This document shows positions 1,669 through 18,817 of a stretch of DNA of 25,707 bases, piece by piece. The number at the start of each line of letters is the position of its first letter. The first letter of the stretch is position 1. The notes beneath the pieces are model-generated. The model was not told the origin of the DNA. It did no database searches and worked only from the letters and a program-made list of their open reading frames with translations. The DNA comes from a virus, in IMG/VR virus record IMGVR_UViG_3300050821_005596, positions 1-25,707 of that record; one strand, written 5' to 3'. The position numbers were made by a program, and so were the translations under genes.

Positions 1669-1703
1669 CGTAAACACAATAAAAAATTAGATTAACAAAA
1701 AGG

Positions 1704-1737
1704 AAGGCCTCTAGACAACCACTTCTAGAGGCCTTTT
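1704..1737 (+). terminator. Rho-independent terminator, perfect 12-bp stem
   Basis: AAGGCCTCTAGA (1704-1715) pairs perfectly with TCTAGAGGCCTT (1724-1735) around an 8-nt loop, and TT follows, giving a run of four Ts at 1734-1737. It lies 35 nt after the stop of the Cro-like gene and separates it from the replication genes. The A-rich left flank means it may also work for minus-strand transcripts. Confidence 0.85.
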
Positions 1738-1836
1738 CACACACAGGATAACCTAGACCGCTTCAGCGTACCAGCGCATCGCAATCCAGAATCTTAACAT
1801 GGGCTTGCGTGTTTCCGCGCAAACAGGGGGATTTCC

Positions 1837-3147
1837 ATGTTAAAATTCGGTAGTCAGCGTATTCCCGACAGCCATTTACAGCAAGTTTTAAATGAAAAAC
1901 CCGGGCAAGACCACCCGGGTAAAAACAGGAGAATTGAGGGAGATCCCAACATACCAGTTCTGGAGGAATTGTCAATGAAAAATGTTAACAATTCTTCTTT
2001 GACTCTTTCCGAACCTTCGTTTACAGTGTCGAACGTAAATGAAAAACCCGAGCCGGGAAGCTCGGGTACAGGATATTCTAAAATTGGGTGCCTAGCAGCT
2101 CCAATCTTAGCATATCCGCATGAAAAGTCAATAAAAAACGATAGACTGACTGCGGTTGATGCTATGCCTTATGAAGCCGGATATATTCCGTCAGGCGTGC
2201 ATACACCTCTCGAAGATACGTCTTCTTCTTTGACTATTGATTCTGAATGCGATATTGTGCGCGATATAAATAAGAAACCCGAGCCGGCAAGCTCGGGTCA
2301 GGAAACTTCTATGATTGGATCATCTCTACCTCCGATCATAGCAGATTCCCCATTAGCAAAAAACGATAAAGATTTCATTGACGACGGGGTCACTATGTCC
2401 GAAGGATATGTAAAGCTCAAAAGAGAAGCTCTGGAGCTATTGTGCAATGATCCAGATGCTTTTTTGTTGTTAACATTGATAGCCCTTCGGATTAAACGAA
2501 CCGATTCCAAATATGCTAACAAAAAACTTAAGATCGGCGAAGCCATGATCGGCGATTACAGGACCATCGGGCTTACTCGAAAGAGATATCGAAGGGCCAT
2601 CAACAAGTTAATTGAATTACAAATTGGGGCCTTCAAAGGGGCCAACAAAGGAACGATCGCAACTCTATTAAATTCAGATATTTATGACGTAAATTTGGAG
2701 GCGGAAGGGCCAACAAAAGGGCCGGCTGAGGGCCAACAAAGGGCCACCAAAGGGGCCACTAACAAGAAGATTAAGAATGAAAGAAAGAAAGAAGAAGAAG
2801 AGAAGAGTAAGAGGCCTCCGGCCCCCCCCCCCGCTCCCGATTCCCTTTCTTCCAAATCAGCTTTCGGAGAGCACGGCAACGTGCTGCTCACGGCCGAACA
2901 GCACCAAAAGCTCTTAGAGATAAACGGCCCCGAGGATACAGCCTGGATGATCCAAAAGCTCGATGTCTCCATCCCCAACGCCAAGCGGCCGTACAAGTCC
3001 CACTACCACACGATGTGCCGGAAGGGATGGGTCAACGATGCCCTTCTAGAACATAAGGAAAAGGGAAATTCTGCAGTTAAACCGGGATATTCTTCAGCTA
3101 GAAAATTCAAAATAAGCTCTCAAGAGGGGTTAGAAAGGACTTTATGA
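1837..3147 (+). CDS. Phage replication initiation protein (O-like, winged-helix), with internal repeats
   Basis: This 436-aa protein has a recognisable initiator part from about residue 187. A winged-helix-like domain (SEGYVKLKREALELL to IYDVN) is followed by a Gly/Lys/Gln-rich segment (GPTKGPAEGQQRATKGATNK), a lysine/glutamate linker, a Pro-rich hinge, and a C-terminal domain near 350-405. This layout is typical of phage O/DnaD-like initiators that recruit helicase. The next gene, a DnaC-like loader, overlaps it by four bases. The first 186 residues are unusual tandem units with the signature N-E/K-KPxPxSSG. DNA hairpins encode that signature. ATG 1837 has a purine-rich AGGGGG site; ATG 1975 with TGGAGG is an equally good in-frame start. 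The gene holds GGGCCAACAAA iterons, so it probably contains the replication origin, as lambda O does. Confidence 0.8.
   Translation: MLKFGSQRIPDSHLQQVLNEKPGQDHPGKNRRIEGDPNIPVLEELSMKNVNNSSLTLSEPSFTVSNVNEKPEPGSSGTGYSKIGCLAAPILAYPHEKSIKNDRLTAVDAMPYEAGYIPSGVHTPLEDTSSSLTIDSECDIVRDINKKPEPASSGQETSMIGSSLPPIIADSPLAKNDKDFIDDGVTMSEGYVKLKREALELLCNDPDAFLLLTLIALRIKRTDSKYANKKLKIGEAMIGDYRTIGLTRKRYRRAINKLIELQIGAFKGANKGTIATLLNSDIYDVNLEAEGPTKGPAEGQQRATKGATNKKIKNERKKEEEEKSKRPPAPPPAPDSLSSKSAFGEHGNVLLTAEQHQKLLEINGPEDTAWMIQKLDVSIPNAKRPYKSHYHTMCRKGWVNDALLEHKEKGNSAVKPGYSSARKFKISSQEGLERTL
1899..2339. repeat. Three tandem hairpin units inside the initiator gene
   Basis: ACCCGGG/CCCGGGT (1899-1920, 8-nt loop), ACCCGAGC/GCTCGGGT (2046-2067, 6-nt loop) and ACCCGAGC/GCTCGGGT (2277-2298, 6-nt loop) are three perfect stems at the same place in three repeat units. 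In the second and third units each is followed by a further stem. ATTGG (2083-2087) pairs with CCAAT (2101-2105), and ATGATTGG (2311-2318) pairs with CCGATCAT (2332-2339). The third unit's A-to-G change turns a T-A pair into a T-G wobble, so pairing is retained. No T tract follows, so these are not terminators. Confidence 0.75.
2594..2814. repeat. Iteron cluster plus purine-rich tract: probable replication origin
   Basis: GGGCCAACAAA occurs exactly at 2639-2649, 2707-2717 and 2730-2740. Variants are at 2594-2604 (GGGCCATCAAC), 2627-2637 (GGGCCTTCAAA), 2741-2751 (GGGCCACCAAA) and 2753-2763 (GGGCCACTAAC). A strand-asymmetric A/G tract of about 50 nt (2761-2814) follows directly. Iterons within the initiator gene followed by an easily melted tract is the lambda-type arrangement. 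Origin function is inferred from that parallel. Confidence 0.6.
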
Positions 3148-3722
3148 AAACAAATCATTGGCAACGATGGGCGGATTTTTGCGCCACTTTCGGCGTTCCG
3201 CGAAAGATGCTTCACGCTGATCATAAGAACTTTAAGATCATATCGGACGTTCACGGACGAAGTTACCTCACTTTGGCTGAGGAATGGATTAAAAAACCTT
3301 GCTCGCTATTGCTTGAGGGCGATCCCGGAAGGGGAAAGACTTTTTTTATGCATGCTTTGGTCAAGGGTTTGCTTGAGAAGGCTGAAGTTCACCAAATATG
3401 CCTTATGCGCTCAAAAGATATCGACGACAGGATTTTGGCTGAATTTATGCAATATGGATATTCTACTAATTTCTTGAAAAGGCTAGCGGACGTGGAGTAT
3501 CTTTTGATTGATGATTTTGGAGTTCAAAGACTTACGGAAAGATCTGAAAGAGATTGGTACGATTTTGTTGATAGGAGAATTATGGATGAAAGGGTCACGG
3601 TTTTTAGTACCAATTTGGATAAAAAACAGTTCGTAGATGCTTTCGGAGGGCGTATTGCGTCCCGATTGGAAGAGTGTAAAAGGATCGTATTCGCAGGACC
3701 TGACCTGCGAAAACGAGATTGA
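3144..3722 (+). CDS. DnaC-like AAA+ helicase loader
   Basis: The 192-aa ATPase carries Walker A GDPGRGKT (residues 59-66), Walker B LLIDDFG (120-126), a sensor-1 STN (155-157) and a likely arginine finger in GGRIASRLE (168-176). This is the order and spacing of the DnaC/IstB group, which loads the replicative helicase on single-stranded DNA at the origin. It is shorter than typical DnaC (about 245 aa), with a short N-terminal partner-binding part. Its ATG overlaps the initiator's stop (ATGA at 3144-3147), consistent with a coupled initiator-loader pair. Confidence 0.9.
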   Translation: MKTNHWQRWADFCATFGVPRKMLHADHKNFKIISDVHGRSYLTLAEEWIKKPCSLLLEGDPGRGKTFFMHALVKGLLEKAEVHQICLMRSKDIDDRILAEFMQYGYSTNFLKRLADVEYLLIDDFGVQRLTERSERDWYDFVDRRIMDERVTVFSTNLDKKQFVDAFGGRIASRLEECKRIVFAGPDLRKRD

Positions 3723-3771
3723 CTAAAAACCTCGATAGTTTGATAATAATTTTTACTAATGAGGTCCCTGT

Positions 3772-4104
3772 ATGTCATATCCCAAGTCTTTAATCTCCAG
3801 GCTCAAAAAGAAACTTCCCGAAATGGCAACCGTCGCCGACATGGTCCGCCTCGGCGTTTACCGCTCCGCCCAGGGGGCCTACGCCGCTCGCAAATCCGGC
3901 CGCTGTCCCCCGTTCATCCGAGTGCCCTGCCGGGGAATAATCTACCCCCGCCAAGGGGTGCTGGACTTTTTCCAAGGCCTCGAAAATGAAAAAGGCGCCA
4001 AACCGCAAAAAGGGGATTCGATTCCGTCCGGGAATGGCAAAATTTCGCACGCTAGCATATCGCCATTGCGTCAAAATTCCAAAAACGACTCAGAGGTCGC
4101 CTAA
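3772..4104 (+). CDS. Excisionase/AlpA-like helix-turn-helix protein (110 aa)
   Basis: Residues 17-67 read ATVADMVRLGVYRSAQGAYA, then RKSGRCPPFIRVPCRGIIYP and RQGVLDFF. This is the winged-helix pattern of small excisionase or HTH_17-type proteins (xxTxxEMAxxLGV, then GxxPPxIRxGxRxxYxxxxVxxW). Such proteins bind DNA as transcription regulators or directionality factors. The C-terminal 40 residues are low in complexity and basic. GAGG lies before the ATG. Without an integrase in view, a regulatory role is more likely than excision. Recognition is by pattern and moderately sure. Confidence 0.65.
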   Translation: MSYPKSLISRLKKKLPEMATVADMVRLGVYRSAQGAYAARKSGRCPPFIRVPCRGIIYPRQGVLDFFQGLENEKGAKPQKGDSIPSGNGKISHASISPLRQNSKNDSEVA

Positions 4105-9393: not shown

Positions 9394-9467
9394 GGACCAA
9401 TAGCTCAGCTGGTTAGAGCGGCACTCTTATAAGGTGTATGTCGCCGGTTCAAGTCCGGCTTGGTCTA
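9394..9467 (+). tRNA. tRNA-Ile(UAU), reading AUA codons
   Basis: The acceptor GGACCAA pairs with TTGGTCT (first pair G-U). The D stem is GCTC/GAGC, the anticodon stem GCACT/GGTGT (two G-U pairs), the anticodon loop CTTATAA with anticodon TAT at 9428-9430, and the T stem GCCGG/CCGGC with loop TTCAAGT. The discriminator is A, and CCA is not encoded. UAU is unusual in bacteria, where AUA is normally read by a lysidine-modified CAU tRNA. It matches the strong ATA bias of terL. It lies between the small genes and the portal. Confidence 0.93.
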
Positions 9468-17162: not shown

Positions 17163-18817
17163 ATGATTACCACGTCCTCAGTGCTTCCTGCACCGGTACA
17201 ACAATCGTTTAGTTATAAATTATTGTCTGTACCTGTTCCCTACATGATCCACAAGATACCTGCCCAGTTTAAGAATATGCCACGCAATGGTGGTACTACT
17301 CTTAGAATGCGTCGGTACAATCCATTGGCTACTGCTACAGTACCTTTGGGTAATAGTGGTATCACACCTCCTCCACAACAGCTCACCTCTGTTGATATTG
17401 ATGCCAAGATTGACTTCTACGGCACATACGTATACTTGAATGAACAGGTAACGCTCCAGAACCAAGACCCTGTACTAAACGAAGCCGCACAACGTCTTGG
17501 CGTGTCTCTACGTCAGACCGAGGACGAGCTCACACGTAACATGCTTGCGTCGACGGCTTCGTTCATCAACTGCGTGGGCGGTACTAATGGGGATAACCCC
17601 ACAGAAATGGCTAGAAGCGACGTTGACAACGTGGTTCAGACCCTCGCTGGCAATAACGCTTACACCATCGCGGACAATATCGAGGGCGACGACAAGTTCG
17701 GTAAAGTGTGTGCCGAAGTAAAATCTTCTCTGATTGACTTGGAACTCCTCGCTGCCTGATAGGCGGACGGAAGACAAGGGCGAAGGCTAATTAATGCCTC
17801 TTTTATTAAGGACTTTGAGTTTATGAAGACATTCAATTCGAAAGGCCAAGACCTCGGGGGAAACTCTATAGGAAGTCTTTTCCAAAAATGTTTTTCTAAA
17901 CTCCAGCATGATTTCAGCATGTTCCTTTTTGCAGATAAGATATGGGATGATCAACTTAAGAAGCTGATCCATCAATTTTCTGGTGGTATACCATTCATAT
18001 TGAAGTCTCCATTTAGGGTTATGTTTGGCTCTGTTTTTATGGAAAAGATTGCCGCCAAATTTGGCGTGAATCCATTCCATAAGTTTCTTATCGGTGTTAA
18101 CGATTTGAAAGCGTGGAAAATAATCAATTGCATCCGATCGCTGTCTCGATTGGATATATATAGATCCTTCTCCGTCGATAATCCCGGCAAGGTAAGAAAG
18201 CTCTGCAACAGTCCACATGTTGTCTCCTTTTTAGGTAGATTATACCAAAAAGAGGTATTATTGGCTACGTTGAACGACTAAGTGAGAAGACGCCGCAAGG
18301 CGAAGCGATAGTCTGAACTCTATGGTAACATAGAGAGGGAGATCCGAAGAGGTTTCCCCGCCAATTATTAAATAAAACTTAATAATTGGTCACAAAAGTA
18401 ACAGAACCGACAGCTCCTGTCCGTGATAGCTATTTCGCTCTAGGTTCGACAAACCTGATAAGGACTATTGAGAACGTTTCTGGCTTCATCGCCAAAGCTC
18501 AATATCCTTATCAAGCGACTGTGCTGCGTCCTGAATGGGGCTCGATTAGCAATCTAAGATTGTTATTGTCTAGCATCGGTAGTGTTTCGCCAAATGCTTC
18601 CGGACTGGGTAATGATGTCTACAATGTATTCTGCGTGGGTATGGAAGCATACTGTTGCGTGGAACAAGATGGCTATTCGGCACAGTTCATATACCGTCCA
18701 CCTATCTATGATGGGCCACTCGCCCTGAATTCAAGCTGCGGCTACAAGTTCGCCGAAGTGCCTAGAATCCAGAACGATGCATGGGTAATAAATCTTAGAA
18801 CAACGCTGAAACCGTAA
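17163..18817 (+). CDS. Major capsid protein, N4-gp56-like, split by a group I intron
   Basis: Exon 1 is 17163-17702 (180 codons) and exon 2 is 18410-18817 (135 codons plus stop), giving a 315-aa product after splicing. Exon 1 carries the N4-gp56-type stretch VDIDAKIDFYGTYVYLNEQV, then PVLNEAAQRLGVSLRQTEDE and LTRNMLASTASF. The junction reads ...EGDDKFG then TAPVRDSYFALGSTNLIRTI, restoring the usual family sequence. Exon 2 has GFIAKAQYPYQATVLRPEWG and ends ...INLRTTLKP. It forms the HK97-fold shell. Without splicing, exon 1 would run 18 codons into the intron and stop at TGA 17757. The start follows the hairpin-masked GAGG. Confidence 0.9.
17787..18218 (-). CDS. Antisense LAGLIDADG homing endonuclease in the intron
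   Basis: This gene lies on the strand opposite the capsid gene. The 143-aa protein begins MWTVAELSYLAGIIDGEGSI, with LAGIIDGEG (residues 10-18) as the single LAGLIDADG motif. Later parts include FQIVNTDKKLMEWIHAKFGG and EYTTRKLMDQLLKLIIPYLI-like helices. One motif means it probably works as a homodimer. It cuts intronless capsid alleles so that the intron spreads. The ATG follows AAAAAGGAGACAAC. The stop lies in a hairpin loop (AGGC/GCCT) of the intron core. It is somewhat short for the family but looks intact. Confidence 0.9.
   Translation of the reverse strand: MWTVAELSYLAGIIDGEGSIYIQSRQRSDAIDYFPRFQIVNTDKKLMEWIHAKFGGNLFHKNRAKHNPKWRLQYEWYTTRKLMDQLLKLIIPYLICKKEHAEIMLEFRKTFLEKTSYRVSPEVLAFRIECLHKLKVLNKRGIN
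18239..18267 (-). promoter_or_regulatory. Intron-internal promoter for the antisense endonuclease
   Basis: On the minus strand TAGCCA (18262-18267) is followed, after exactly 17 bp, by TATAAT (18239-18244), a perfect -10 box with a 4/6 -35. The start of transcription would be close to 18232, 14 bases before the ATG, with AAGGAG between. The gene therefore does not depend on capsid transcription. Confidence 0.65.

Follow-up and report, generated by a model that had tools for sequence, protein, structure and literature searches.

The 5' part of the replication initiator gene in this 25.7-kb IMG/VR virus record (the entire stretch was analyzed and is called the window below) probably carries a lambda pO/oop/tO-like control unit that has been triplicated and overprinted in frame on the coding sequence. 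We give this reading, in which the transcripts are predicted, a probability of about 0.6. It is built on computed features of the three units, U1 to U3: their hairpins, the strand polarity of the T-runs, promoter-like sites, the recurrence of the arrangement at the same position in other phages, and the absence of constraint on the protein when U2 is compared with U3.

The initiator open reading frame (1837-3147) encodes 436 amino acids and combines a conserved part with a long in-frame N-terminal extension (Table 1). A DnaD-like domain begins at residue 188, beside the ATG at 2395, based on a match to the phrog_2514 profile, and homologues from Vibrio phage 1.177.O, phage HS2, and several IMG/VR phages begin at the same position. 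Since this is where both the domain and the unextended homologues start, residues 1 to 186 are an addition. The structure model of the conserved part has a winged-helix fold with weak PDB matches only; this domain, adjoining a DnaC-like loader, places the protein with the O-like/DnaD-like initiators. The extension is open in frame throughout, with codon usage consistent with the frame. Ribosome-site-like sequence precedes 1837 and 1975, and a weaker one precedes 2395. Two relatives, L101 and L088 (domains 48 to 51% identical), have a single extension of 52 to 53 codons, whose start lies behind a good ribosome site in L101 and overlaps the preceding stop codon as ATGA in L088. Homology between the extensions of different phages was not significant at the protein level for L088 or most pairs, the exception being L101 against U1 (P = 0.014). 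A search for close relatives of the full 436-residue protein in viral contigs returned none, and phages related through their terminase (53 to 69% identity) had no detectable homologue of this initiator. Programmed -1 frameshifting at GAAAAACCC was rejected, as the slippery heptamer is absent in frame. A 12-bp perfect hairpin, terminator-like on both strands, lies between the upstream HTH gene and the initiator gene (1704-1735).

Table 1. Features of the initiator region (window coordinates; transcription signals are predictions)
Feature	Coordinates	Strand	Details
In-frame N-terminal extension of initiator, contains U1, U2, and U3	1837-2394	+	186 codons; open frame; predicted disordered, pLDDT about 38
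U1 hairpin and T-run, predicted intrinsic terminator	1899-1920	-	dG -14.7; T-run TTTTCATTT; leftward RNA about 1941 to 1895
U1 antisense promoter TTGACA-16-TATGTT	1948-1975	-	TG extension (TGG-TATGTT); 10 of 12 consensus
U2 hairpin and T-run, predicted intrinsic terminator	2046-2067	-	dG -15.2; leftward RNA about 2097 to 2041
U2 second inverted repeat, candidate operator	2071-2117		overlaps -10; P = 0.015
U2 antisense promoter TTGACT-16-TAAGAT	2104-2131	-	TG extension (TGC-TAAGAT); 9 of 12 consensus
U3 hairpin and T-run, predicted intrinsic terminator	2277-2298	-	dG -16.5; T-run weaker; leftward RNA about 2328 to 2272
U3 second inverted repeat, candidate operator	2301-2349		overlaps -10; P = 0.025
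U3 antisense extended -10, TGC-TATGAT	2335-2340	-	poor -35; 7 of 8 to TGNTATAAT
Conserved part of initiator (DnaD-like, winged helix)	2395-3147	+	phrog_2514, E 2.1e-5; homologue starts
Iteron-like repeats inside initiator gene, candidate origin	2637-2757		about 11 bp (AGGGCCAACAA)
DnaC-like helicase loader	3144-3722	+	phrog_50, E 8e-28

Each unit contains a perfect GC-rich stem, as a preliminary description of this DNA had reported: ACCCGGG/CCCGGGT in U1 (7 bp) and ACCCGAGC/GCTCGGGT in both U2 and U3 (8 bp), the exact U2/U3 pattern having an expected count of 0.00 in window shuffles. The same description had all three units sharing N-E/K-KPxPxSSG, which is true of U2 and U3 only; U1 reads NEKPGQDHPG and thus has NEKP and the stem in common with the other two, without PxPxSSG. 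U2 and U3 are in register at an offset of 231 nt across about 125 nt, and the sequence common to them, AAACCCGAGCNNGNAAGCTCGGGT, has no other occurrence in the record. The second stem described for two of the units is present as a long inverted repeat in U2 and U3, and is explained in part only by the reading given here. Some of the changes that separate U1 from U2/U3, and U2 from U3, are compensatory double changes. RNA folding z-scores for U2 and U3 were -5.4 and -5.5 on the plus strand and -5.5 and -3.9 on the minus strand; U1, as a 91-nt fold, was not unusually stable (z = -1.2). The unit spacings, 147 and 231 nt (1889-2299), are multiples of 21 and so compatible with both the reading frame and a 10.5-bp helical repeat, which may be chance.

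On the minus strand, a T-run follows every hairpin in the window (CCCGGGTTTTTCATTT, GCTCGGGTTTTTCATTT, and GCTCGGGTTTCTTATTT), derived from the EK (or KK) codons ahead of each hairpin. Terminators on the sense strand were rejected, as the plus strand of the window has no such T-run. The hairpins of L101, L113, and L123 have the minus-strand T-run as well; in L101, alone of all these, the plus strand has a T-run too. An extended -10 is located on the same strand ahead of the terminator, at 28 to 37 nt in U1 to U3 and at 28 to 46 nt when the relatives are included, which would give antisense RNAs of about 47 to 59 nt in the window. These promoter-like sites are matches to a consensus that may not be that of the host; a score of 7/8 or more to TGNTATAAT is reached in 2.3% of random 50-nt windows. 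The extended -10 of the relatives reads TGC-TATAGT (L101), TGG-TATGAT (L088), and TGC-TATAAT with TTGCAA at 17 nt (L123), and the -10 falls at ATG-42 or -43 in L088, L101, L113, and L123. The signals vary in quality: L088 has the hairpin and -10 with a T-run that is not clean, and L113 has the terminator with a weak -10. Inverted repeats lie over the -10 (P = 0.015 to 0.035 in U2, U3, L088, and L123; 0.075 in L101; up to 0.16 across phages), which suggests regulation of the promoters by a dimeric DNA-binding protein. Rfam gave only sub-threshold matches; these were to small-RNA families and fell on the U1 minus strand. The idea that antisense terminators alone are rare was rejected: these loci have 85 terminators, of which 46 lie antisense to the gene 5' of them. 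It is the combination with a promoter that is specific.

We scored this combination with a detector that takes a promoter followed by an intrinsic terminator within about 110 nt. Applied to both strands of the entire window, it ranked the three units highest (20.9, 20.1, and 18.5; next, 16.5). In lambda, used as the positive control, oop was its single hit across 1.8 kb, with a length of 78 nt against the known 77. An antisense module was present at the initiator start in 6 of 21 homologous lineages, the window included, with unrelated sequences, compared with 27 of 2,520 windows drawn at random and, among other gene starts, 6 of 473 (Fisher P = 2e-6); the thresholds had been fixed after part of these sequences had been inspected, and leaving aside the window, L101, and L123, which were most used in setting them, the count is 3 of 18 (binomial P about 0.002, by hand). 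The module is absent from the other 15 homologues. It is the highest-scoring one of its locus in L101, L123, L127, L084, and L085, and L011, counted among the six, has it at an unrelated initiator (phrog_11233, E 5e-27). That gene (L011:1212-2195) has an antisense promoter-terminator module of 77 nt at its start. Among five further annotated phages, Pantoea phage PdC23 has the module, again as the top of its locus, and the detector found none at the other four initiators; Dulem virus 31 was also scanned, with its initiator not confidently placed.

The hairpins are kept where the protein drifts. Codon divergence between U2 and U3 is near neutral (pN 0.36, pS 0.41; 17, 15, and 15 differences at the three codon positions), so the two show no protein constraint, and their stems are nonetheless kept, with all 16 stem bases identical. 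At the sixth stem pair of U1, G-C replaces A-T and pairing is retained despite different amino acids. By synonymous resampling, the probability of the observed stems was 0.014 for U1, 0.007 for U2 and U3, and 0.002 for L101 and L088. In several homologues, a hairpin of differing sequence sits at a similar distance upstream of the domain ATG: 77 nt in L101 (arms TTAAAACCCGGGT..ACCCGGGTTTTAA), 85 nt in L088 (CAGATCCGAGG..CCCCGGATCTG), and 97 nt for U3 of the window. In L113 and L123, which have no extension, it is in the untranslated leader, 74 to 80 nt before the ATG. An alignment of seven stems has 96% paired cells and double changes at five pairs, a count that is partly circular, since the sites were chosen for being hairpins, and whose independent part is the positional recurrence. 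Near-neutral codons, perfect stems, and a hairpin recurring in divergent phages together support the proposal that selection acts on DNA or RNA structure and not on protein alone. Just before the homologous initiator of another lineage (L105:3916-3988) is a 15-bp perfect inverted repeat (ATAGAAAAGCACAGG/CCTGTGCTTTTCTAT) with a 42-nt loop.

If the units function like oop, RNA polymerase would initiate leftward at the extended -10 of each and, some 50 to 60 nt further on, halt at the GC hairpin and T-run. Each of the three units would yield a short RNA that terminates itself and is antisense to the initiator mRNA in its 5' part. These RNAs would probably adjust both the synthesis of the initiator and the transcription that enters the origin rightward. 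Being antisense to the initiator's own message, they may act directly on it through RNA-RNA pairing, via convergent transcription, or both. We infer transcription, termination, and a regulatory effect of the units in this scheme. The relatives have a single unit ahead of the initiator, and in-frame tandem duplication would have raised the number to three in this phage; since the reading frame runs through the units, the protein would thereby have acquired a disordered, little-constrained extension.

Lambda offers the closest parallel. OOP RNA is 77 nt long (PMC3349717) and pairs with cII mRNA, and pO works against the rightward promoter and influences activation of the origin (PMC3985674, PMC3349717). 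Both systems place a short leftward unit with a self-terminating RNA, predicted in our case, at the start of the initiator, and both have an initiator gene with internal iterons adjoining a helicase-loader gene (PMC3349717, PMC3985674). Lambda has one copy, located between cII and O, whereas three are found here inside the initiator reading frame, and the 77-nt RNA of lambda contrasts with the 47 to 59 nt predicted here. The computed promoter-like sites in U1 to U3 provide a leftward antisense promoter at the initiator start, and terminator structure plus T-run predict that the transcript would be self-terminating. Antisense overlap with the 3' end of a cII-like gene is absent, as the upstream HTH gene (1423-1668) ends over 200 nt away from the terminator of U1. 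Sequence homology with oop/pO is likewise absent: a blastn search with 1700-3800 gave no match in 50,697 phage records, among them that of lambda. Given that these two defining features are lacking, we do not file the units as oop; by analogy, they would work like oop rather than be oop. Plasmid replication initiators are subject to antisense control of the CopA/RNAI type. DnaA in B. subtilis is likewise under antisense control (PMC12112137). In these systems, as in the one predicted here, a short RNA is antisense to the initiator message in its 5' part; they differ in that here the units lie within a coding extension and in three tandem copies.

The location of the origin bears on an alternative in which the palindromes are DNA binding sites, as operator or origin, for the initiator or a repressor. 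Tandem inverted repeats upstream of an initiator, their overlap with the -10 in several phages, and spacings in multiples of 21 are all in keeping with such sites. However, the palindromes differ among phages with 44 to 51% identical domains, save for a loose ACCCG core, and a T-run would be superfluous for a pure binding site. A separate iteron array inside the conserved domain is also the more usual origin signature; L088, L101, and L123 have their own iteron-like arrays at the same place, with other sequences. The hairpin units, 147 and 231 nt apart, are not the closely spaced direct repeats of an iteron origin. The gene order, with an antisense unit, an initiator with internal iterons, and a helicase loader, resembles that of lambda, and from this order and the iterons we consider the iterons a likelier site for the origin than the hairpins. 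The origin element suggested earlier for the hairpins is thus better located there, and binding sites are an improbable explanation of the units overall.

Two further alternatives concern the sense transcript and the coding sequence. Hairpins in the mRNA could control translation from 1837, 1975, or 2395, and so, for example, the ratio of long to short initiator. Strong sense-strand folds (z about -5.4), the ribosome-site-like sequences at the three starts, and homologues beginning at 2395 are consistent with such an element. The hairpins, however, lie 97 to 475 nt upstream of 2395, and L113 and L123, which have no extension, keep the hairpin with its T-run in a leader that is not translated. 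Translational control, raised in the preliminary description, could still operate, but it is not the best fit because the polarity of T-run and promoter, which it leaves unexplained, points to an antisense transcript; we regard it as unlikely. It had also been proposed that the repeats derive from a mobile palindrome that entered in frame, like the Rickettsia palindromic elements; such an insertion would then have been amplified. As in those elements, hairpin-bearing palindromes are read in frame within a gene and add a dispensable-looking protein part. Dispersed copies in unrelated genes are missing, though: this gene alone has the units in the window, the one match in the viral collection was unrelated, an ordinary terminator in another phage, and the longer unit pattern had no match in viral contigs. 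Moreover, the copies form a tandem array that stays in register through the flanks, so that duplication explains their number, and relatives have a comparable unit at the same place ahead of this one gene. A mobile origin is thus very improbable.

Returning to oop-like antisense control, its fullest form holds that three gene-internal, in-frame antisense units make three RNAs, that the extension is mainly a by-product of overprinting, and that this amplified counterpart of oop represents a general design recurring before unrelated phage initiators. We advance this tentatively, at a little under even odds. If it is true, leftward antisense units beside the initiator would be a recurrent design of phage replication regions and not a lambdoid specialty, occurring also in phages without oop sequence homology. 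Such units could be duplicated and taken up into coding sequence, and regulatory DNA would shape a protein N terminus whose own evolution is near neutral. It would then be possible to test in independent systems what lambda pO does in origin control, a matter of long debate.

Elsewhere in the record, a tRNA-Ile gene (anticodon TAT; 9394-9467) lies amid the structural genes. The major head protein gene (17163-18817) is split, with 17163-17759 corresponding to positions 23-201 of phrog_1357 and 18386-18817 to positions 202-305. Between the two parts are a homing-endonuclease open reading frame of the LAGLIDADG/HNH family on the opposite strand (17787-18218) and a weak group I intron match on the plus strand (18152-18335; E = 0.04, below the gathering score). 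The arrangement resembles a capsid gene interrupted by an intron, with the endonuclease gene antisense.
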